From Wohlfahrtiimonas larvae (GTDB lineage Bacteria > Pseudomonadota > Gammaproteobacteria > Cardiobacteriales > Wohlfahrtiimonadaceae), in contig NZ_MVDO01000019.1 of the NCBI RefSeq assembly GCF_002006755.1, positions 1-64,000 on the forward strand: DNA of 64,000 bases, given 5' to 3'. Numbering within the stretch: position 1 is the stretch's first letter; every line of letters starts with the position of its first letter. A model generated the notes under the pieces. That model was not told the DNA's origin. It made no database searches and worked only from the letters and a program-made list of their open reading frames with translations. This document shows positions 4,765 to 17,406 of this stretch, piece after piece. Position numbers and translations under genes: made by a program.

Positions 4765-6702
4765 ATGGATAAGAATCAAATTCGTAATGCGCTATTTTTA
4801 TCAGTCGCAGCAATACTTTTATATTCATTTAAAGGCAATCCAAGCTGGATTGAGCTGTGCTCTGGTTTAGCATTTTTCTTATTTGGTATGCAGTGTATGA
4901 CAGATGGTTTACAGCAATTAGCAGGCGGTAAACTTGAAAAGCTATTAGCTAAAAGTACATCTAAACGCTGGAAAGGTTTGGTGTTTGGTATTGCATCGAC
5001 GATGATTTTGCAATCCACAACGATAGTTTCACTATTAATCATTGCTTTTATTAGTTCATCATTGATCACCTTAGCTGGTGGTTTTATGATCATGTTAGGG
5101 GCATATTTAGGATCAAGTACAGGTGTTTGGTTATTGGCTATGGCAGGGCAAAGCGTAAGCTTAGCACCTTTTGCATATCCACTACTTGTGTTAGGTGTTT
5201 TAGCATCGTTCAATGGTGAAAAGAGTAAAGCATTAGGGCGTGTTGTCTTGGGGATTGCTTTTATCTTTTTAGCCATTACTCATATGAAAAATGGTTTTTC
5301 TGATTTTACGACAGATTTTGATTTAACAACTTTTCAGATATCCGGTATCCAACGATTCTTAATTTTAATTGTAGTGGGCTTTTTAGCAACAATGGTTTTG
5401 CAATCAAGCCATGCAACGATTATGTTGATATTAACAGCATTAGGCTTAAAACAAATTTCCTTGGATGATAGTTTTATTTTAACCGTTGGCGCCATCTGGG
5501 GCAGTACAGTAACAACTGCAGTGATTGGTTTTATTGGAGGAAGTCGAGAAGGCAAGCGGTTGGCAATTGCCCATATCCTTTTTAACTTTACAACGGGTTC
5601 ATTAGCATTAATTCTTTTGCATCCATTGACTTATATTGTTTTGTTTTTAGGGCAGCGGCTAGATTTAGATCATTTAACTCAGTTAGCCGTTTTCCATACA
5701 TTGTTTAATGTATTGGGCGTTTCTATTTTTTGGCAATTACAACGTAGGTTAATTGCTTGGTTAGAGAAGATCGTACCCAATGAAGTTAAATCTCCTGTTG
5801 TTGTGGAAACGGCCGAAACAGTTTATGAACCCATTGAATTAGATAAATCTATTCAGCCTAAATATTTACGTGAACAATCATTAGGTGTACCGCCTGCTGC
5901 AGTTGGAGCTGTATTTAAAGAAGTTCAGCATTTAGGTGAAGTCAGTAGTGAAGTATTGTGCTTATCTTTAAATATTCCTTTAGAGGATGTTACGAAAGAA
6001 ACTTTTGATGAACTCTGTTTTTTAGAGAGCCATGCTAAAGCATCGGTGGATGCGAATATTTTATATAAACGTTACGTTAAGGGACTATATGGCGATATCT
6101 TAATCTATATGAGTCGCATAGATTTTTCAGACTCAGAAGATGCGGATTATTACCAAGATTATTTGTTAAATTGCCAAATGGTGGCTTTATCGTTGGTGGA
6201 TGCGGTTAAATCTAGCCGACATTTACAGAAGAATTTTAATCGATATTTAACAGTACACGATAGTATTATGCGTGATTTTTATCAGGATTTAAAATTATTT
6301 GTTTATACAAATATGCGCTCACTGTACGCAATTTATAGCACTTTAGAAGATGATCTAACAGACCCTATCAAACGAGAAGAAGTGCTATTAAAAATTGATG
6401 GTTTATTAGAAAAAAGTAAGCAGTTTGAGCGTGTATTTCGTCGAGAGCTATTTTTGGCAAGTAGTCATGAAGAGGTGAATGCTTTTAGTACAAGTTCTGT
6501 GATGAATGATTTAAGTTATTGCCGACGTTTAATTAAAAGCTTGTATGGAATTTTACGTTTAACCATTGAAAGCCAAGCTTATCCTTTTGTAAATAGCGAT
6601 GAAACAAAAAATGAAAAAGAGGCTGAACCTGTGATGGCTGAAGATATCGATGTAAATTTACATCATATTACGGAACAAGAGGTTCAGACAGATGTAAAAT
6701 AG
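4765..6702 (+). CDS. Na/Pi-cotransporter (NptA/PhoU-tail) family protein
   Basis: This 645-residue protein has a membrane half (residues about 1-345) with the duplicated Na/Pi cotransporter fold. The two signature repeats are MILQSTTIVSLLII near residue 83 and VLQSSHATIMLIL near residue 213, so the first carries QST where QSS is usual. Residues about 375-610 are a cytoplasmic, acidic, helical region resembling the PhoU-like domain found in the YjbB/NptA group. The family exports or co-transports phosphate with sodium. It sits between two proteins of unknown function; the stop at 6702 is 15 bases before the next start, so co-translation is likely. No pho-type regulator is nearby, so a phosphate role is family knowledge, not shown here. 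Confidence 0.82.
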   Translation: MDKNQIRNALFLSVAAILLYSFKGNPSWIELCSGLAFFLFGMQCMTDGLQQLAGGKLEKLLAKSTSKRWKGLVFGIASTMILQSTTIVSLLIIAFISSSLITLAGGFMIMLGAYLGSSTGVWLLAMAGQSVSLAPFAYPLLVLGVLASFNGEKSKALGRVVLGIAFIFLAITHMKNGFSDFTTDFDLTTFQISGIQRFLILIVVGFLATMVLQSSHATIMLILTALGLKQISLDDSFILTVGAIWGSTVTTAVIGFIGGSREGKRLAIAHILFNFTTGSLALILLHPLTYIVLFLGQRLDLDHLTQLAVFHTLFNVLGVSIFWQLQRRLIAWLEKIVPNEVKSPVVVETAETVYEPIELDKSIQPKYLREQSLGVPPAAVGAVFKEVQHLGEVSSEVLCLSLNIPLEDVTKETFDELCFLESHAKASVDANILYKRYVKGLYGDILIYMSRIDFSDSEDADYYQDYLLNCQMVALSLVDAVKSSRHLQKNFNRYLTVHDSIMRDFYQDLKLFVYTNMRSLYAIYSTLEDDLTDPIKREEVLLKIDGLLEKSKQFERVFRRELFLASSHEEVNAFSTSSVMNDLSYCRRLIKSLYGILRLTIESQAYPFVNSDETKNEKEAEPVMAEDIDVNLHHITEQEVQTDVK

Positions 6703-6717
6703 TATAAAGAGGTGCAC

Positions 6718-8196
6718 ATGATTAAGGAATCATTGAAAATCCATGGCCACCGTCAGTTTGAGATTAAGCAACGTGTCTCGTTTGATCATGCCAAAACAAA
6801 AAATATTAAATACCAAGTGGAAACTTATTTCTTTTTACCCGTTGCGTTACAAATCAATCCACAATCATATTCCACAAAAGAATTTCAAAAATCTTTAAAA
6901 AATTATGTTCGATTAAGTCCAGCAACTCACAAATTGAAGTATTTTTATAAAAAAAAGGGAATGTTGGAAAAACTATCGATTGAGTTAGAACATTGGTCAA
7001 TAGAATCACCAGAGATTGAATATTATGAAAATGCATTAAAAAGAGTAGCATTAACTTATAAGCGTAGTTTACGTTTGGCAGTTAAATCTCTGTTAAAAGC
7101 ACCGAATCAAAAAACAGAAGATAATATTCTTCAATTATTATTGGATATTGAGAAAACGATCAAGGCTTATCGAGAATTAGAAATAAAGTGTCGGTCAATA
7201 GAAAAAAAGATCACTTCTAATGCTTTTGAGTATTGTGATGAGTATATTTCATGGGTAACAACATTCTATTTACGCAAGCTTATTACAGAGCGAGCCATTC
7301 CTTGTCGTGCTGAGATTAGCCATGCATGGAGAGAAGAAATCAACTATCGTGAACAGGAATATCCAGAAAGCATTGCAAAACCGGGCGAAAGCAATGAAGA
7401 GGTATTACATCGTTGGAGTTCTCTGCGTAGATATATTAATCGTTATCTTTTTTTAGATATTAATCATCGTAAAGGCGCCCCTTTATTATTGCATACGATC
7501 TATGCAACAATTGCGGCTATTTCTATGAGTATTACATTATTTGTCATGTTGAATATTCGTGGTGGACAATATGCGGATATCAGTATGAAAGTATTCATTG
7601 CACTTGTCTTAGCTTATATTTTTAGAGATCGTTTTAAAGATATTAGTAAGCGTAAAATGCAACAGTGGTTTCAGCGCTGGTTACCAGATCGTAAGTTGTT
7701 AATTTATAAGGAAGGTGTTAAAAGCCCTATTGGCATTTGCAAAGAGTCTTTTAGGTTTATTTATTATGGTATTTTGCCAGATGATGTTAAGGCGGTTTAT
7801 CAGCAAGCTAATGATGGCTTCTTAACTTATACCGAAAAGGATGTCGATATTCTTTTTTATAAAAAAGAAGTTCATTTGAAAAATCAGCCAAATTTATTTG
7901 AAAAAACGCGTTTTCCTATTGCTGATATTTCTCGTTTTAATATATCAGATTATCTGCGTTATATTGATATTGCATTCGAAGAATTGCCTTTTTTAGAAGA
8001 AGATGAAACTCCAGTATTGGGTGAGAAAATTTATCATGTGTATATGATTCGACGAATTCGTTTAAATAGTGATCAAAATGTTGCCACAGAGTTAGTTCGG
8101 TTGGTGATTAATGTTGATGGTATTAAAAGATTAGAAGTCCTAAAATCTTTAGACTTTTCTAAAGAACAAGATGCTTCTTTTCAAGATTTACAATAA
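6718..8196 (+). CDS. Two-TM membrane protein of unknown function
   Basis: This 492-residue protein is not one I recognise. A soluble, basic, helical N-terminal half (to about residue 260) is followed by two adjacent membrane segments (about 262-282 and 292-308) and a C-terminal soluble domain of about 180 residues rich in aromatic and acidic residues. I chose the ATG at 6718 because an AAAGAGG Shine-Dalgarno lies five bases upstream; a GTG six bases earlier overlaps that site. It directly follows the Na/Pi-type carrier and probably belongs to the same transcript. No catalytic motif is visible, and the topology suggests both soluble halves face the cytoplasm. Confidence 0.72.
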   Translation: MIKESLKIHGHRQFEIKQRVSFDHAKTKNIKYQVETYFFLPVALQINPQSYSTKEFQKSLKNYVRLSPATHKLKYFYKKKGMLEKLSIELEHWSIESPEIEYYENALKRVALTYKRSLRLAVKSLLKAPNQKTEDNILQLLLDIEKTIKAYRELEIKCRSIEKKITSNAFEYCDEYISWVTTFYLRKLITERAIPCRAEISHAWREEINYREQEYPESIAKPGESNEEVLHRWSSLRRYINRYLFLDINHRKGAPLLLHTIYATIAAISMSITLFVMLNIRGGQYADISMKVFIALVLAYIFRDRFKDISKRKMQQWFQRWLPDRKLLIYKEGVKSPIGICKESFRFIYYGILPDDVKAVYQQANDGFLTYTEKDVDILFYKKEVHLKNQPNLFEKTRFPIADISRFNISDYLRYIDIAFEELPFLEEDETPVLGEKIYHVYMIRRIRLNSDQNVATELVRLVINVDGIKRLEVLKSLDFSKEQDASFQDLQ

Positions 8197-8904: not shown

Positions 8905-8932
8905 AAATAGCGCTTTCGGGCGCTATTTTTTT
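8905..8932 (+). terminator. Rho-independent terminator of the RidA-like gene
   Basis: A perfect 9-base stem AAATAGCGC/GCGCTATTT with a 6-base loop is followed by an unbroken T run. It separates the RidA unit from the YqiJ-YqiK-ATPase module. Confidence 0.85.
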
Positions 8933-9117
8933 ATTTGATATTTGAACAGTGTTTATTATATAATTCATTCATGATTTTATGACGTTGACTAAAGTTAGAA
9001 AAATATAAATAAAAAATATTGTTTAGTTAAATTTTTTTTATAATGTGCTATATTTCGTTGCCAATAGAGCGCCAAATGGTATAACCAGTCAAAAACTGAA
9101 TAAGGAACAGTAGCTGT

Positions 9118-9753
9118 ATGATGCTATTTTTAGAGACAATTTTTGCATTTCCAGTTGTGATTTATACAACTTTATTGCTGCTGTGTATTATGTTTTGGTT
9201 AATTGGTGCCATTGATATTTTCCAATTGGATAGTTTAGATATTTCCCCAGAAGGTGATGCGGGTTCTCTCAATGCGTTAGGCGGCATTTTATTAAAATTT
9301 AAATTGCATGAAATTCCTTTTACTGTGGTTGCCACATTTGTTGCTTTATTTGCATGGCTCACAAGTTATCTTATTTTCCGAATGATTCAAATGCCGATGA
9401 AAGACGTTGCTCTTTTATATTACGGCGTAGGCTTAGCCAATATATTTGTAAGTGGCGTTGTTGGCTTAATCGCAACATCTATATTCTTTCGACCATTTAA
9501 TAAATGGTTATCCAAATTAAATAAAGCAGTAACACATAAAGATATTTTAGGTGAAGTTGTGATTATTCGTAGTAGCGTTGTAAATGCTGAAAAAGGTGAA
9601 GCTACTTATGAAGATGGCGGCGCAGGTATGATTCTACAAGTTCGTTGTTTTAACAAAGATAATCAATTAACACGTGGTAGTGAGGCGATTATTGTTAAAT
9701 ATGATGCTGTTCATCACTATTATGAAGTAATTCCTAAAAAGAAATATTTTTAA
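9118..9753 (+). CDS. yqiJ: YqiJ-like OB-fold membrane protein (DUF1449-like)
   Basis: This 211-residue protein has about three membrane helices (residues about 5-32, 65-92 and 98-122) followed by a soluble C-terminal domain (about 135-211) with the NfeD/OB-fold-like pattern: ILGEVVIIRSSVVN, then AGMILQVRC and GSEAIIVKYDA. YqiJ proteins are encoded next to YqiK flotillins and resemble NfeD proteins, which help assemble flotillin membrane microdomains. The start lies after a GGAA ribosome site. The flotillin gene follows after 93 bases, giving the usual YqiJ-YqiK pair. Confidence 0.85.
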   Translation: MMLFLETIFAFPVVIYTTLLLLCIMFWLIGAIDIFQLDSLDISPEGDAGSLNALGGILLKFKLHEIPFTVVATFVALFAWLTSYLIFRMIQMPMKDVALLYYGVGLANIFVSGVVGLIATSIFFRPFNKWLSKLNKAVTHKDILGEVVIIRSSVVNAEKGEATYEDGGAGMILQVRCFNKDNQLTRGSEAIIVKYDAVHHYYEVIPKKKYF

Positions 9754-9846
9754 AAAATTAAGCATCAAAATCAGCAGTATTCAGCAGTATAAAAAGATAA
9801 GATTCAAAAGTTATTTTTAGATTAATTTAAAGGATAGGAAACTCGT

Positions 9847-11907
9847 ATGCCAGAAATTGTTGTGTTAGTTTTGTCAGTGATTGGTGTTTCACTGGTTGTG
9901 ATCTTTGGTTTATTTGCCATTATTAAATCATTTTATGTCAAAGTGCCACAAGGCACAGCTTTGATTCTGAATGATACGACGAGCAAACCAAAAGTATTCT
10001 TTACAGGTAAATTAGTGCTACCTGTGATCCATAAGAAAGAGTTCATGAAGATCTCTTTATTGACATTATTAGTAGATCGCCGTGGTAAGGAAGGTTTGAT
10101 CTGTAAAGATAACTTGCGTGCGGACATTGCTGTTGCATTCTATATTCGCGTGAATGAAACCACAGAAGATGTTTTAAAAGTAGCAAAATCTATTGGTGTA
10201 GATCGTGCATCGGATCATCATGCTGTGAGCGAATTATTCAGTGCAAAATTCTCTGAAGCATTGAAAACTGTTGGTAAGCAATTTGACTTAGCAAAATTGT
10301 TTGAAGATCGTCTAAACTTCCGTGAGCGTATTGTAGATGTCATCGGTAAAGATTTGAATGGTTATGCGCTAGAAGATGTGGCAATTGACTATTTAGAGCA
10401 AACGCCAATTGGTCATTTAGATCCAAACAATATCTTCGATGCGGAAGGTATCAATAAAATCACAGCAATTACAGCTGTTCATAAAGATGAAACTAATAAA
10501 CGTGAGCGCGATTTAGAATTGGCTTTGAAAAAGAAAGATACTGAAACATTTGAAGCAAAATTAGAATTAGAGCGTCAACAAGCAGATGCAGAAGCTCGAC
10601 AAAAACGTGAAATTGAAACGATTCGTGCACGCGAATTGGCAGAAACTCTGAAAGTGCAAGAAGAAGAACGTTTGAAAGCAGAACAAGCTCGAATCATTTC
10701 ACAACAAGAAATTGAAGTGCGTGAAGAGAATCGTTTGCGTGAAGTGGAAGTGGCACAACAAAATCGTATGCGTGCTGTAGCAATTGAAGAAGAACGTGTT
10801 ACTCGTGCTCGTGAATTAGAAGTGGTAGCGCGTGAACGTGAAATTGAATTACAAACGATTGATAAAGATAAAGCTGTTGAAGAAGAAAAACGTGTCATCG
10901 CTGATGTGATTCGTGAACGTATCTCTGTTGAAAAAACAGTGGCAATTGAAGAAGAACGTATTAAAGAAGTGCGAGAAGTTTCAGCGGCTGAACGTGATAA
11001 ACAAACGAAAATTTTAGCGGCACAAGCAAAAGCAGAAGAAGAATTAGTGAAGCAAGTGAAACAAGCGGAAGCTGATGAAACGGCTGCAAAACATCGTGCG
11101 GTTGAGATTAGCACGATTGCACAAGCGAATTTGGAAGCAGCAACGAAAGATGCTGAAGCACAAAAACGCATGGCAGAAGGTATGGAAGCTGAGCAAGCGG
11201 CACTTGGTTTGGCTGAAGCACGTGTAATGTTAGCAAAAGCAGAGGCAGAAGAGAAAGAAGGATTGGTGCAAGCTCATGTTGCTGGTGAAATGCGTATCGC
11301 AGAAGCAAAAGGTATTCAAGAGAAAGGTTCTGCTGAAGCTAAAGCAATTCAAGAAAAAGGTTTGGCAGAAGCTAAAGTTGTGGAGGCGAAAGCAACAGCA
11401 ACTGAAAAACAAGGCTTGGTGGAAGCTTCTATTATTCGTGAAAAACTCCGTGCAGAAGCAGAAGGTTTGATCGAGAAATTCCAAGCAATGGGTACAATGA
11501 CAGAAGATTCACGTGCGCATGAAGAATTCCGTTTAGCCTTAGAAAAAGGTTTTGATCAGGCAATTGCTTCAATCAGTGCTAATAAAGAAATTGCACGTGA
11601 ACAGGCAGAAGTATTGGGTGCAGCATTGAGTAATGCGAAAATGGAAATTGTGGGCGGTAATGATCAATTCTTCGAAAGTTTCTCTAAAGCGATTAGCGTA
11701 GGTAAAGCAATTGAAGGTTCTGTGAATCAAAGCCCAATTTTGCAAACAGCGTTGCAAACTGTATTGAGCCGTATTCAAGCACCGACACAAAATGGTGGTG
11801 CAGATGGTACTCCTCATAATCCTTTAAGTAATGTTGATTTAAATGCATTAGCAACACAATTTTTAGGTTATCAAGGCAACAAAGAGCGTAACGATGATCA
11901 ACCATAA
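9847..11907 (+). CDS. yqiK: YqiK-like flotillin (SPFH/Band 7 protein)
   Basis: This 686-residue flotillin has one N-terminal membrane anchor (residues about 4-27), an SPFH/Band 7 domain (about 28-210, including FYVKVPQGTALILN and DNLRADIAVAFYIRV) and a very long charged coiled coil (about 215-560) rich in E, A, K and R. Residues about 485-516 carry short tandem units built on AEAK-x-IQEKG. The tail (about 560-686) is typical of flotillin C-termini. Flotillins oligomerise at the inner membrane and organise functional microdomains. Its neighbours are a YqiJ-like membrane protein and a giant AAA+ ATPase, which suggests a shared membrane complex. The preceding sequence holds an AAAGGATAGGAA ribosome site. 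Confidence 0.9.
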   Translation: MPEIVVLVLSVIGVSLVVIFGLFAIIKSFYVKVPQGTALILNDTTSKPKVFFTGKLVLPVIHKKEFMKISLLTLLVDRRGKEGLICKDNLRADIAVAFYIRVNETTEDVLKVAKSIGVDRASDHHAVSELFSAKFSEALKTVGKQFDLAKLFEDRLNFRERIVDVIGKDLNGYALEDVAIDYLEQTPIGHLDPNNIFDAEGINKITAITAVHKDETNKRERDLELALKKKDTETFEAKLELERQQADAEARQKREIETIRARELAETLKVQEEERLKAEQARIISQQEIEVREENRLREVEVAQQNRMRAVAIEEERVTRARELEVVAREREIELQTIDKDKAVEEEKRVIADVIRERISVEKTVAIEEERIKEVREVSAAERDKQTKILAAQAKAEEELVKQVKQAEADETAAKHRAVEISTIAQANLEAATKDAEAQKRMAEGMEAEQAALGLAEARVMLAKAEAEEKEGLVQAHVAGEMRIAEAKGIQEKGSAEAKAIQEKGLAEAKVVEAKATATEKQGLVEASIIREKLRAEAEGLIEKFQAMGTMTEDSRAHEEFRLALEKGFDQAIASISANKEIAREQAEVLGAALSNAKMEIVGGNDQFFESFSKAISVGKAIEGSVNQSPILQTALQTVLSRIQAPTQNGGADGTPHNPLSNVDLNALATQFLGYQGNKERNDDQP

Positions 11908-11936
11908 TCATTGATGCATTTTTGAAAAATAAACAG

Positions 11937-11963
11937 AGCATAGCGAGGTTTTCTCGCTATGCT
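11937..11963 (+). other. Intercistronic perfect hairpin between flotillin and ATPase genes
   Basis: AGCATAGCGAG (11937-11947) and CTCGCTATGCT (11953-11963) form an 11-base perfect stem with loop GTTTT. No T run follows, so it is not a classical terminator. It could stabilise the upstream mRNA or limit readthrough into the ATPase gene. Confidence 0.6.
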
Positions 11964-11994
11964 GAGTTGATTGATTTTAAATAAAGTTGTGAAT

Positions 11995-14900
11995 ATGTCA
12001 GAAATCGAACAGAAAGATCAAAACCAAGAAGTCTTAGATAGCGCAGTTGCAGAAGGTGGTGCTTATGAAATATTAAGCCGTCGATTAAATGCATTGGGTA
12101 CAGAGCTTCAAGAAAATATCGATACCTTGAATGCCAAACGTTTAGAAGAGTTTGGTAAAAGTGATATGGAAGTAATCGGGCGAATCCGCATTCGTACCGA
12201 AAATAACTGTATTGCAAGGGATATTGTTCGTTTTGGTGATTGGTTGCTGTTTGGTTACAACGTTTTTTTAGGCTTAAAAAAAGAAACGCACGTTGAAGAT
12301 GTTTTCTCGCTCTACCGTTTAGTGGAGCATGATGATAGTTACGATGTTGAAACTGTACCTTTAGAGGGCACATTTTTAAGTATTGATCGTTTTGTTCAAG
12401 ATTTTAATGAGCTTTATACTTACTATAAAAATGCTCAGTTATTACAATTAGTTGAGCGTGATGGTAAGTTGTTGGCAAGCTTCCAAATGGGGGAACGATT
12501 AAGTGATATTCGTGTTTTCCGTTGGTCAATTTCTAGTGATAAACAGAAAATAGAATACATTGATAATCGTGGTGAGCGTGATATTTCATTGCCACCAGCT
12601 TATGATTTTGAATGGATTGCAACTGATCGAGAAAATATCGTCAATGGGCGTTTTCCGCACATTAACATTTTAGATACCGTATTTGTGGAAACAATTGGCG
12701 GTGATCTGACCGTTAAATGTGAAAATAATACAAATGATGGTTTGGGAATTTATCGTGAAGAAGTTTTGGATAAAAACCAATCTATTAACGATGCAAAAAT
12801 AGAATATGCCAAAGTCGGCTCATTGATTCTATTAAAAGTATTGCCTTATCGTGAAGATACATGGCGTTATCTTGTTTACAATATAATGACGCAAAAAGTG
12901 CAACGTATTGATTCAATAGGTTTTGCTTGTATTCAATTACCAGAGGATCACGGAATTATTTTTCCAGGTGGTTATTATTTGCAAAATGGTGATTTTAAAA
13001 CGTATGAACACAATATGAGTGGAATGCGTTTTCGCCGCATTCGCAGATCACCCAATGGTGAAGATGTGTTATACATTTTCTATGATGGCGCAGAAGGGCG
13101 CTTGGCATTGTTCAATTACAATATGATCGAGCGAACGCTAGCGAATCCTATTTTAGCGTTAGGTTATGCAGTGTTTGAAGATGGTCGTATGGTGGTTTTT
13201 GAATCGGTGGATAATGAAGCAACGCGTGTTCATCCGATGCAAATTTGGCAAACGCCATTTTTTAGTGATGAGTATTCAGCCAAACAACCAAATAATAATA
13301 GTTTATTAGGAAGAATTGGTAATCCTGATTTAGTGCGTGGGATTTCCGATTTATATCATGTTGTGCGTGAAATTGGTGATCAAAGTGTTTCATCAGATCG
13401 CTATAGCTTATTGAGTGAAAATACCAAGCAATTGTTTGATCGCTATTTTTGGCTCAATGATGAAAAGAATTTCCCATTTGCAGGCATTTTGCGTTCAATC
13501 TCTCAAACCAGTGAATTGGTTTTGGATGAATATGAAAAAGTAGAAGCGATTCGCAAGCAATCAGATAATGCGATGCGAGAAGCGATGACAATGCAAAAAA
13601 CATTGTTATCACAATTATATGCAGACAGTTGGCAAGAAACCGATGAATTTGTGGAAGCATTGCATTCCATTAATATGCAAATTGGTCGCTTAGTGACATT
13701 GCGTGGTTATCGTTACATTGATCTGAAAGAGATTGATGCAATGGAAGCGCAAATGAAAGAGCGACAAGCATTGATTTCTCGCGCAACAGCAGAGTTTTTA
13801 GCTGATGATCGCTCATTACAGCCGTTTTTGGATAAAATCCAAACAACAGAAACGGCAACGCAGCAAGCTGTTAATACCGCACAATTGCAAACATTGCTGA
13901 CAGAATCTGATGATATGTCGAGCGATTTGGATATGTTATCCAATTTGATGGCAACATTGAAGTTTGATGATGTGACACTGCAAACCAAAATTGTTGAATC
14001 CATTGCAGAGGTTTACGCTAAGTTAAATCAGATGAAGGCGCGCATCATTCAAAAGCGTAAGTCTTTATCATCGACAGAAATGGTGGCGCAGTTTGGCGCT
14101 CAATTTAAACTCTTTGGGCAAAGCGTTGCCAATGCTTTGAACTTAGCAACTACGCCCGAGCGCTGTGATGATGAATTATCCCGTTTATTGGTGCAATTAG
14201 AAGAGTTAGAAAATCAATTCAGCGAAAGTGATGAATTTTTAGCAGACATTCTTGCTAAGCGTGATGAAGTCTTAGAAAGCTTTGAAGGACATAAACAGCA
14301 ATTGTTAGAAGAGCGCCAACGCAGAGCGCAATCCTTGCAAATAGCAGCTGATCGTATTTTAGAAAGCATTCCAAGAAGAACCGCGAGATTCAGCGATACC
14401 ACCGAATTGAATGCTTTTTTTGTGACGGATGCTTTAGCTGTTAAGATTCGTGAAATCACAGAAAAACTCCGTGAATTGCATGATAACGTTAAAGCAGATG
14501 ATATTGAATCACGCTTTAAAAGTGCGAAAGATCAAGCAGTTCGTTCGCTTCGTGATAAATCAGAGATTTTTGAGTTAGGTGGTAATGTTATTCGTTTGGG
14601 TAAACATCGTTTCAGCGTGAATACACAAGAGCCTGATTTGACGATTTTACCGAAAGAAAATTATCTCTATTTGCAATTAACAGGCACAGATTATCAAGAA
14701 CGCATTCAAAATGAGATCTTAGCGCAATATCAGCCATTTTGGCATATGACGATGGAATCAGAATCGCCAGAGGTTTATCGTGCGGAATATTTGGCAAACA
14801 GCATCATCGTTGCAGCGCGCAATAATCAGGAAGGCTTAACCACAGGCATTTTGCATGCGGCGATTTCTATGCAAGAAAACTTGGATAAATTGGTGCGCGA

Positions 14901-17349
14901 TTTCGCAGCAAGCCGTTATCGTGATGGTTATGAAAAAGGGATTCATGATCACGATGCTGTACAAATTCTGAAAAAATTAGTGCCATTGAATGAAAGTGCA
15001 GATTTATTGCGTTTCAGTGCGATGGCAAGAAGTTTGGCAATGTTGTTTTGGAATTTTGAGCAAGAAGATGATGTGGCAAGCTCTTGGATTGATCGCGCGA
15101 AAACAAGTATGGATATTTATACCTTGTTTGGGCATCGTGATGGGTTAGATACGCTACAAGAAGAGATCGAAGTGACTTTATCTATGTTCTATGCAGAATA
15201 TCCGATCAAACATGAGCCACTGAATATAAAGCATGCGGCAGAATATTTGATTGATGTTTTAGCAAGAACACCACAAGAATTTGTCTGTAGCCATTATGGG
15301 CGTGATTTAGCAGCAGGATTACAGAAAAAATTAGAAGATGCACATATGTGGCACAACTTTAATCATTCACAAGCTGCGATGAATGGGCGGTTCGATGCTC
15401 GTTGGCAGTTAATCGAAAATTGGCTCAAGGGCTTATGTTCTTTGCCTGCATTTGAACATAAAGCTCGCTATATTCCTGAAGCGATTATGTTATTGATGCT
15501 TGGTAATGACAGTAAAGTGATTCAGAGATTCAGTGAAGTAGATTTAGATATTGAGATCACAGATTTATTGGGTGAACATGCTCGTGTTGTCCAAGGTAAA
15601 ATGAAAATCAACTTAGATGAATTCTTTAAGCGATTGCGTCGCCATCGTCTGTATGTTGTGCCAGAATTTAGGAAATATTTGACACTGCGCCAAGATATTT
15701 TGGCAGAGCAACGTAAGCAACTCCGTTTAGATGAATTTAAAGCTAAACCATTGAGTTCATTTGTACGCAATAGATTGATCAATGATGTGTATTTTACAAT
15801 CATTGGTGATAACTTGGCAAAACAAATGGGTACGGTTGGTGAAAATCGCCGCACAGATTTAATGGGATTATTGCTTCTGATTTCTCCACCGGGTTATGGT
15901 AAAACCACATTAATGGAATATGTGGCCAATCGTTTGGGTTTAATCTTTATGAAGGTAAATGGCCCAGCTTTGGGGCATGACGTTTTATCATTAGATCCTG
16001 ATCAAGCACCGAATGCAACAGCAAGGCAAGAGTTAGAAAAAGCTAACTTAGCCTTTGAAATGGGCAATAATGTGATGCTGTATATCGATGATATTCAGCA
16101 TACGAACCCTGAATTTTTGCAAAAATTCATTTCATTGTGTGATGGTACACGAAGAATTGAAGGTGTTTGGCATGGCAAAACTAAAACTTATGACATGCGC
16201 GGGAAGAAATTCTGCGTAGTGATGGCGGGTAACCCTTATACAGAATCGGGTGAAGTGTTTAAAATCCCTGATATGTTGGCAAACCGTGCGGATATTTATA
16301 ACTTGGGTGAAGTCTTGGGCGGTATGCAGGATGCATTCATTTCAAGCTACATCGAAAACTCATTAACATCTAATGCTGTGTTAGCACCTTTGGCGCTCCG
16401 AGATTTGAAGGATTTATATCAATTCATGGATCATGCAGAAGGTAAGCCAATCAATTCGAGTGCATTAAGTTATGCTTATAGTGGTGCAGAAATTGCAGAA
16501 ATCACAACAGTCTTAAAGCATTTGATGACCATTCGTGAAATTGTATTCAAAGTGAATCAGCAATACATCGTAAGTGCTGCACAATCAGATAAATATCGCA
16601 CAGAACCACCGTTCAAATTACAAGGTAGTTACCGTAATATGAATAAAATGGTGGAGAAAATCTCTGCCGTGATGAATGATGCTGAAATTAATCAAGTGAT
16701 TAATGACCACTACATTGGTGAGGCGCAGCTATTGACATCAGGTGCGGAAGAAAACTTATTAAAACTCAATGAAATTCGTGGCACTTTAACAGATGTTGAG
16801 AAAGAGCGCTGGGCACAGATTAAACGTGATTTTGCGCGTAATCAATCCATGGGTGGGGATGAAACGGATACAGGTATGAAGATTGTATCGCAGTTGGCGG
16901 AATTGGCAATGAGCGTTAAAGATCTGAATTTTGCGAATCATTTAGTGTCATTAACGGAAAGTCTTCGATTAATGGGTGATCATCAAGATGCAACGAATGC
17001 AAGCCTTAAAATTGCCGATGAAGTGACGAAATTATCTACGGCTTTGAGTACGAATGATCATCAAAAAGCCAATACAGAAGCTTCATTGTACATTGCTAAA
17101 CAGATCGAGCGCTTGAGCGAAGGATTAGTAACATTGAAAAATAATGATGAACAGCAACAAGTGAATCGTTATGTGGCAAAGCAAATGGGTGAGTTAGTTA
17201 AAGGTATGAATAGCTTGAAAGAAACAATGCAGATGAATAATCCGCAATATATTGTTCATCGTTTGGATGCACTTGTAAAAGGTGTTGAAGCATTGGGCGG
17301 CCGCCGAGAAATACGATTGATTAAAGAAAATAGAATTGTGACTGAATAA
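11995..17349 (+). CDS. Giant coiled-coil AAA+ ATPase (DUF3686-type, 'DNA repair ATPase')
   Basis: This 1,784-residue protein belongs to the large AAA+ family with an upstream DUF3686-like region, commonly labelled 'DNA repair ATPase' with little direct support. Residues about 40-480 are a beta-rich region; about 530-920 are long coiled coils; about 920-1270 are helical. The AAA+ module has Walker A SPPGYGKTT near residue 1299, Walker B NVMLYIDDIQH near 1364 and a sensor-1-like VVMAGNP near 1413. A coiled C-terminal tail (about 1600-1784) ends the protein. I chose ATG 11995 over the upstream in-frame TTG at 11971. It follows the flotillin gene by 87 bases containing a hairpin and is closed by a terminator. 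Family context with YqiJ/YqiK points to a membrane-associated remodelling role rather than DNA repair (inference). Confidence 0.85.
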   Translation: MSEIEQKDQNQEVLDSAVAEGGAYEILSRRLNALGTELQENIDTLNAKRLEEFGKSDMEVIGRIRIRTENNCIARDIVRFGDWLLFGYNVFLGLKKETHVEDVFSLYRLVEHDDSYDVETVPLEGTFLSIDRFVQDFNELYTYYKNAQLLQLVERDGKLLASFQMGERLSDIRVFRWSISSDKQKIEYIDNRGERDISLPPAYDFEWIATDRENIVNGRFPHINILDTVFVETIGGDLTVKCENNTNDGLGIYREEVLDKNQSINDAKIEYAKVGSLILLKVLPYREDTWRYLVYNIMTQKVQRIDSIGFACIQLPEDHGIIFPGGYYLQNGDFKTYEHNMSGMRFRRIRRSPNGEDVLYIFYDGAEGRLALFNYNMIERTLANPILALGYAVFEDGRMVVFESVDNEATRVHPMQIWQTPFFSDEYSAKQPNNNSLLGRIGNPDLVRGISDLYHVVREIGDQSVSSDRYSLLSENTKQLFDRYFWLNDEKNFPFAGILRSISQTSELVLDEYEKVEAIRKQSDNAMREAMTMQKTLLSQLYADSWQETDEFVEALHSINMQIGRLVTLRGYRYIDLKEIDAMEAQMKERQALISRATAEFLADDRSLQPFLDKIQTTETATQQAVNTAQLQTLLTESDDMSSDLDMLSNLMATLKFDDVTLQTKIVESIAEVYAKLNQMKARIIQKRKSLSSTEMVAQFGAQFKLFGQSVANALNLATTPERCDDELSRLLVQLEELENQFSESDEFLADILAKRDEVLESFEGHKQQLLEERQRRAQSLQIAADRILESIPRRTARFSDTTELNAFFVTDALAVKIREITEKLRELHDNVKADDIESRFKSAKDQAVRSLRDKSEIFELGGNVIRLGKHRFSVNTQEPDLTILPKENYLYLQLTGTDYQERIQNEILAQYQPFWHMTMESESPEVYRAEYLANSIIVAARNNQEGLTTGILHAAISMQENLDKLVRDFAASRYRDGYEKGIHDHDAVQILKKLVPLNESADLLRFSAMARSLAMLFWNFEQEDDVASSWIDRAKTSMDIYTLFGHRDGLDTLQEEIEVTLSMFYAEYPIKHEPLNIKHAAEYLIDVLARTPQEFVCSHYGRDLAAGLQKKLEDAHMWHNFNHSQAAMNGRFDARWQLIENWLKGLCSLPAFEHKARYIPEAIMLLMLGNDSKVIQRFSEVDLDIEITDLLGEHARVVQGKMKINLDEFFKRLRRHRLYVVPEFRKYLTLRQDILAEQRKQLRLDEFKAKPLSSFVRNRLINDVYFTIIGDNLAKQMGTVGENRRTDLMGLLLLISPPGYGKTTLMEYVANRLGLIFMKVNGPALGHDVLSLDPDQAPNATARQELEKANLAFEMGNNVMLYIDDIQHTNPEFLQKFISLCDGTRRIEGVWHGKTKTYDMRGKKFCVVMAGNPYTESGEVFKIPDMLANRADIYNLGEVLGGMQDAFISSYIENSLTSNAVLAPLALRDLKDLYQFMDHAEGKPINSSALSYAYSGAEIAEITTVLKHLMTIREIVFKVNQQYIVSAAQSDKYRTEPPFKLQGSYRNMNKMVEKISAVMNDAEINQVINDHYIGEAQLLTSGAEENLLKLNEIRGTLTDVEKERWAQIKRDFARNQSMGGDETDTGMKIVSQLAELAMSVKDLNFANHLVSLTESLRLMGDHQDATNASLKIADEVTKLSTALSTNDHQKANTEASLYIAKQIERLSEGLVTLKNNDEQQQVNRYVAKQMGELVKGMNSLKETMQMNNPQYIVHRLDALVKGVEALGGRREIRLIKENRIVTE

Positions 17350-17370
17350 GTAATAGTGTGAATAATAGGG

Positions 17371-17406
17371 AAGCCCAAATAGAAAAGCTATTTGGGTTTT
17401 TATTTT
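17371..17406 (+). terminator. Terminator of the flotillin-ATPase module
   Basis: AAGCCCAAATAG and CTATTTGGGTTT pair around the loop AAAAG, followed by a T-rich tract. The stem sequence recurs almost unchanged at 20186-20218, on the other side of the transporter-OCD gene pair. Confidence 0.85.

Follow-up and report, generated by a model that had tools for sequence, protein, structure and literature searches.

What does a giant AAA+ ATPase of the DUF3686 type, labeled a DNA repair ATPase in many genomes, do when it is encoded directly behind two membrane proteins? The question is raised by a 64,000-nucleotide stretch of the Wohlfahrtiimonas larvae genome (NCBI RefSeq assembly GCF_002006755.1, contig NZ_MVDO01000019.1, positions 1 to 64,000 of the forward strand; hereafter, the window), in which three open reading frames (ORFs) on the plus strand, between positions 9118 and 17349, encode a YqiJ-like protein, a flotillin and a DUF3686 ATPase, in this order (Table 1). 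The gaps within this triad measure 93 bp (yqiJ–flotillin) and 87 bp (flotillin–ATPase), and the ORFs together with a closing hairpin at 17369-17401 confirmed a preliminary description of the locus, made from the letters alone, as three genes in that order on one strand with one closing terminator. That description had also proposed that the ATPase works with the flotillin scaffold on the membrane, perhaps in envelope stress, with the coiled coils as the docking surface.

The linkage was assessed in two samples, namely 299 evenly drawn Pseudomonadota genomes, and 80 loci from named genomes together with seven from the 299-genome sample, in which partners were sought by profile searches; phyla outside Pseudomonadota were sampled via plasmid-collection records. 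The ATPase proved rare, being present in 8 of the 299 genomes, and a flotillin of the same subtype adjoined it in all eight. A flotillin search of the same genomes showed these eight linked proteins to be 51-100% identical to that of the window, whereas all the others reached at most 34% and came from genomes without the ATPase. Among testable Pseudomonadota loci, 81 of 82 had the flotillin upstream of the ATPase and in the same orientation, and 78 of 79 had a YqiJ homolog at the same place. The plasmid-collection records yielded the flotillin in 10/10 cases, from gammaproteobacteria, Deinococcus, Streptomyces/Nonomuraea and Hymenobacter, and thus spanning four phyla (Pseudomonadota, Deinococcota, Actinomycetota and Bacteroidota). 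Additionally, two ATPase loci at contig edges had their flotillin elsewhere in the same assembly. The linkage of the ATPase to this flotillin subtype is near-obligate. The preliminary description had named an ATPase usually found without a flotillin as the outcome that would speak against its proposal; the survey gave the opposite, and supports placing the ATPase with this flotillin subtype and YqiJ and not with DNA repair genes.

Within the genus Wohlfahrtiimonas, the ATPase occurs in three of six genomes: the window genome, G351 (W. populi) and G354 have both the ATPase and the flotillin, and G350, G352 and G353 have neither. Because the triad of G354 sits between a LysR-type regulator gene and a BCCT transporter gene, and the same two genes abut in G353 with nothing between them, the three genes are gained or lost as one block; flanking repeats marking a mobile element were limited to weak, short pairs. 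The nearest named relative of the window ATPase is that of W. populi (95%), and the ratios of nonsynonymous to synonymous substitution rates (dN/dS) between the window and this species were 0.066 for yqiJ, 0.031 for the flotillin, 0.040 for the ATPase and 0.014 for its AAA+ part. Strong purifying selection acts on the triad in the window lineage. The patchy distribution (8/299), the exact three-gene presence/absence and the plasmid occurrence could also speak for a mobile conflict or phage-defense system that senses membrane damage. However, the PADLOC match in the triad was limited to a P-loop fragment, the neighbors in the window are metabolic and transport genes (ten of which, when run through PADLOC, gave only a RidA-like partial match), and the system was absent from the phage records searched and carries no toxic effector domain, which makes a role in defense quite improbable.

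The other frequent companion of the ATPase is PspA. The YjfI–PspA gene pair lies directly upstream of the triad in 57 of 77 loci, and PspA is encoded in all seven other ATPase carriers of the 299-genome sample, against 103 of the 299 genomes overall, as well as in 23 of 26 further carrier genomes tested. These counts favor a reading in which the ATPase disassembles PspA polymers as Vps4 does ESCRT-III, the flotillin being a mere membrane anchor, and the same parallel between PspA and AAA+ ATPases is drawn in the available part of Ravi et al. (2024; PMC11237479). PspA is, however, absent from the window genome, which is 99.8% complete, and from all 18 genomes of the window's family, five of them ATPase carriers. 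Because PspA is absent from the family and yet the dN/dS values of the triad are low, the triad in the window lineage has a selected function independent of PspA. In pairwise distances over the 54 loci carrying all five genes, the ATPase correlated with the flotillin at r 0.915 and with PspA at r 0.748; with the other genes held constant, the partial correlations were 0.76 for ATPase–flotillin, 0.61 for flotillin–PspA and -0.37 for ATPase–PspA, a pattern that suggests a chain running PspA – flotillin – ATPase. The flotillin, not PspA, is the constant partner of the ATPase. Moreover, the predicted AAA+ core has its best matches in Clp and RuvB motors and not in Vps4, its model shows a beta-hairpin ahead of the sensor-1 strand, and the Pfam scan detected no MIT domain, so that neither this domain nor the classic-clade AAA core of the Vps4/ESCRT ATPases was found. 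Taken with the less constant presence of PspA, these features make a PspA-directed remodeler an unlikely account of the ATPase.

Several arrangements around PspA and its neighbors were observed along the way. On pQBR103, a large P. fluorescens SBW25 plasmid, a run of YjfI, PspA, rhomboid, DUF2491, DUF350, DUF1190 and glutathionylspermidine-synthase-like genes precedes the triad; this locus (L096, 1043-14247) unites an E. coli-type yjfI-pspA(yjfJ)-yjfKLMC cluster and the yqiJ–flotillin–DUF3686 ATPase genes in one run. Downstream of the ATPase, 30 of 75 loci (including L022-L027, L032-L036, L038-L044 and L048) have a gene for a rhomboid-family intramembrane protease, of which the available sections of PMC11237479 make no mention. 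In the window genome itself, a DUF350 (YjfL-like) gene adjoins one for an SPFH protein that bears a SHOCT domain at its C-terminus (L109, contig C141, 952-2385). A variant with a band-7–SHOCT protein in place of the YjfI–PspA dyad is described in the same part of PMC11237479 and, by analogy, the SPFH–SHOCT protein might be a PspA stand-in in the window genome.

Which kind of motor the ATPase comprises was examined through its domains. The protein matched DUF3686 (PF12458) over its full length with 662.5 bits (positions 1-448; cut-off 25) and DUF7902 with 73.5 bits, and carries a C-terminal AAA module (33.2 bits; cut-off 21.2); a TTG upstream at 11971 provides an alternative start that adds eight residues. 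The Walker A motif SPPGYGKTT occupies residues 1297-1305 and the Walker B motif LYIDDIQH residues 1362-1369, matching the 1,784-residue protein with intact Walker A (near 1299) and Walker B (near 1364) that had been described from the letters. Walker A, Walker B, the sensor-1 Asn and Arg1431 were invariant in 97 of 97 loci, and the core motifs including the sensor-2-like GSYRN in 96-97 of 97. Because the Walker B motif ends in Asp-Asp, as does that of DnaA, the AAA+ motor is probably active. The AlphaFold model of residues 1-520 had a mean predicted local distance difference test score (pLDDT) of 88.7, and Foldseek retrieved mainly beta-propeller proteins for it (Sec12, Ski8 and Elp1; E ~1e-6), with TM-scores of only ~0.2. 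The N-terminus is hence predicted to be beta-propeller-like, in agreement with the propeller named in the available part of PMC11237479. In the model of residues 860-1650 (pLDDT 83.5), a single AAA+ core is accompanied by a long helical arm and a small beta unit; the beta-hairpin comes after the Walker-B helix and ahead of the sensor-1 strand. The best Foldseek matches of the core were ClpA, ClpB and RuvB, the list consisting mainly of Clp and RuvB motors. An assignment to the helix-2-insert (MoxR-like) clade, prompted by an AAA_5 match, was rejected, since helix 2 of the model carries no insert hairpin. The C-terminal tail of 140 residues is variable and less constrained (dN/dS 0.18). Neither the Pfam scan nor the hydropathy profile revealed a transmembrane (TM) segment or a protease domain, and a search of the DUF3686 profile against solved-structure sequences returned nothing useful.

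The label of DNA repair ATPase derives from the Pfam description and from NCBI product names, and the fact that the top matches of the AAA+ core, by sequence as well as by fold, include RuvB could be read in its favor. Nevertheless, the protein scored 20.3 bits against a cut-off of 282 with the RuvB model NF000868 and 18.6 against 299 with TIGR00635, it contains no DNA-binding Pfam domain, and its constant partners are membrane proteins; the open literature searched contained no mention of DUF3686. A function in DNA repair thus seems very improbable indeed. The preliminary description had held the label to be poorly founded, and no support for it was found here: the name carried by many genomes is probably mistaken, and the ATPase probably works at the cell membrane.

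A scan of the whole flotillin against Pfam returned nothing, whereas residues 1-228 scanned alone matched Band_7 (E 9.5e-8). The protein has a TM segment at residues 4-22, and an alignment of 442 amino acids (aa) to E. coli YqiK showed 29% identity (E 1e-46). The Pfam Flotillin domain PF15975, which E. coli YqiK matches at 6e-41, was not detected in residues 450-686, and a search with the full protein against solved-structure sequences gave nothing useful. Judged by these alignments, it is an SPFH protein of flotillin type and of a divergent subtype. Its Pro/Gly-free stretch runs unbroken for 243 residues (202-444), and charged repeats that contain Gly continue to ~555, for which the coiled coil of roughly 350 residues given in the preliminary description was a fair estimate. 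Among carriers this coiled coil is conserved, with a majority-residue frequency of ~0.75-0.87 per 40-residue block over positions 201-480, which is compatible with a specific partner and no proof of one. The 211-aa protein shows hydropathy peaks at residues 8-26, 63-81 and 106-124 and matched no Pfam model, neither YqiJ_N nor YqiJ_OB. Its similarity to E. coli YqiJ is weak (23% identity, E 0.007; hhalign E 1.6e-5, probability 79). Of the OB-fold membrane protein described earlier, the membrane part gains three hydrophobic segments, and the OB-fold is putative, in line with the weak YqiJ match.

Some loci depart from this gene arrangement. A second, shorter SPFH gene stands ahead of the long flotillin in L052 (7002-7658) and L050 (6091-7017), which suggests hetero-oligomeric scaffolds. 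One Pseudomonas locus has a 79-aa ORF, weakly similar to EF-hand and TerB, in the interval that separates flotillin and ATPase (L033, 9097-9336), and a similar flotillin–ATPase gap of 500-600 bp is found in several other Pseudomonas loci.

The one-to-one pairing with one flotillin subtype, the strong co-variation and the high conservation of the flotillin coiled coil could also be explained if the ATPase simply opened or disassembled the flotillin–YqiJ assembly, with no separate client. Other flotillin–NfeD pairs such as E. coli YqiJ–YqiK, however, exist without such an ATPase, so that disassembly is no general need of such assemblies, and recycling of the scaffold as the sole task appears to us rather doubtful. 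We give somewhat better than even credence to a broader reading, in which the three genes encode one membrane machine, an ATP-driven motor on a flotillin–YqiJ scaffold for the remodeling of membrane proteins or of the membrane. As is known from these families, the YqiJ-like protein and the flotillin would form an SPFH scaffold at the cytoplasmic face of the inner membrane, and the DUF3686 protein would be its dedicated AAA+ motor. Docking to partners or their recognition would fall to the propeller and the coiled-coil arms. The AAA+ cores, assumed to assemble into a hexameric ring, would use ATP to exert a pull on scaffold-bound clients or to remodel them; the likeliest such clients would be membrane proteins that are damaged or have misfolded. 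Such a machine would resemble HflKC–FtsH in its mode of action, except for the missing protease domain, and would supply a motor to the ATP-independent holdase known from flotillin–NfeD of Staphylococcus aureus. The YjfI–PspA pair and the rhomboid protease may be frequent, non-essential add-ons for membrane repair or clean-up. We infer from this arrangement a physical flotillin–ATPase complex, its hexameric state and the type of client, and only the frequent PspA, YjfI and rhomboid neighbors point to a possible role in stress. As targets of the motor, we rank clients held by the scaffold above the scaffold itself, and the latter above PspA where present. A more specific version, in which the ATPase is a protease-free, ATP-driven disaggregase or extractor of membrane proteins on an SPFH platform, an obligate flotillin motor for which PspA is dispensable, is put forward tentatively and with less confidence than the general machine.

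A number of points weigh against the membrane machine. With the 80 collection loci being the top-scoring relatives, distant DUF3686 proteins enter only through the 299-genome sample, an order sample of 32 genomes and 12 plasmid records. One metagenome-assembled genome (L068) has the ATPase, and no such flotillin was found in its assembly. The distance correlations mostly reflect shared inheritance, the pairs being non-independent, and the low TM-scores to known structures allow the folds to be assigned at superfamily level only. Furthermore, the ATPase has neither a protease nor a known client as a constant linkage partner, and in the open literature no experimental work on the operon was found.

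Related systems show which parts of this arrangement are shared. The operon type itself has already been published as a computational finding, so that the membrane idea of the preliminary description is not new: the available part of PMC11237479 describes an operon of a flotillin, a YqiJ-type protein and a propeller/coiled-coil AAA+ ATPase, for which membrane dynamics were proposed, in a full form with a CesT/Tir–PspA dyad and an abbreviated form without PspA. The window has the same three gene types and corresponds to the abbreviated form, the PspA of the full form being absent, with the difference that its lineage lacks PspA in the whole genome and family and not just in the operon. E. coli YqiJ–YqiK shares the succession of a membrane protein, YqiJ-like in the window, and a flotillin; unlike the window, it has no ATPase, and its YqiK is a 553-aa protein with a recognizable Flot domain, compared with 686 aa and 29% identity for the window flotillin. 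The AAA+ region of Providencia had no DNA match in the E. coli genomes searched, among which no carrier was thus found. In S. aureus, FloA–NfeD likewise combines a flotillin with an OB-fold membrane partner (the OB-fold being putative in the window), and holds unfolded proteins without ATP as a holdase, whereas the window encodes a dedicated ATPase with the scaffold (PMC11222466). An SPFH assembly paired with an AAA+ machine at the inner membrane is also seen in HflKC complexed with the AAA+ protease FtsH, as reported in the accessible part of PMC13220708; FtsH is itself a membrane protease, in contrast to the window ATPase with neither predicted TM segment nor protease domain. Mammalian flotillins assemble into large cages whose wide end rests on a membrane, according to the portion available of PMC11260169.

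New here are the measure of how strong and how specific the pairing is, the exact presence/absence site of the block and a lineage in which the module persists in the complete absence of PspA; for the flotillin–YqiJ–ATPase unit, the available part of PMC11237479 reports neither linkage rates nor a flotillin subtype specificity nor a presence/absence site. The Wohlfahrtiimonas lineage separates the function of the motor from the phage-shock protein, which a PspA-bearing host cannot do. Flotillins are widespread, and their role is still debated. A flotillin that always comes with a dedicated giant ATPase offers a direct handle on the role of energy in an SPFH scaffold.

Table 1. Positions of the triad, its ATPase domains and the flanking signals in the window
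Feature	Position	Strand	Description
Terminator-like hairpin, between RidA-like gene and operon	8905..8928	+	10-pair stem followed by a T-run; consensus scan only
Candidate sigma-70-like promoter	8935..8964	+	TTGATA-18-TATAAT; 11/12 consensus matches
YqiJ/NfeD-like inner-membrane protein	9118..9753	+	211 aa; 3 hydrophobic segments; C-terminal domain presumed OB-fold
Flotillin (SPFH)	9847..11907	+	686 aa; one N-terminal TM segment and long charged coiled coil
Giant AAA+ ATPase	11995..17349	+	1,784 aa; DUF3686, helical and coiled-coil middle part with DUF7902, AAA+ core, variable tail
DUF3686 domain, residues 37-485	12103..13449	+	PF12458; predicted beta-propeller-like
AAA+ core and lid, ~residues 1257-1643	15763..16923	+	Walker A, Walker B, sensor 1, Arg1431, sensor-2-like GSYRN
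Rho-independent terminator-like hairpin closing the operon	17369..17401	+	Strong; 14-pair stem, T-rich tail

Terminator-like sites were well above expectation in the region (4 found, 0.1 expected), whereas promoter-like sites were not above chance (4 found, 5.8 expected), so that the site at 8935-8964 is a candidate only. A terminator-like hairpin intervenes between the triad and the genes for a Na/Pi transporter, a 494-aa protein and a RidA-like protein, which were hence rejected as operon members; the first two also lack any link to the triad outside the genus. The Na/Pi-cotransporter-like gene and the following gene for the 494-aa protein, to which no Pfam family corresponds, occupy positions 4765-8196 of the window, and the pair is kept in all Wohlfahrtiimonas genomes checked, with the triad present or not. 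In a Wohlfahrtiimonas genome without the triad, a TelA toxic-anion-resistance gene lies near the gene for the 494-aa protein (L121, 7491-8591).

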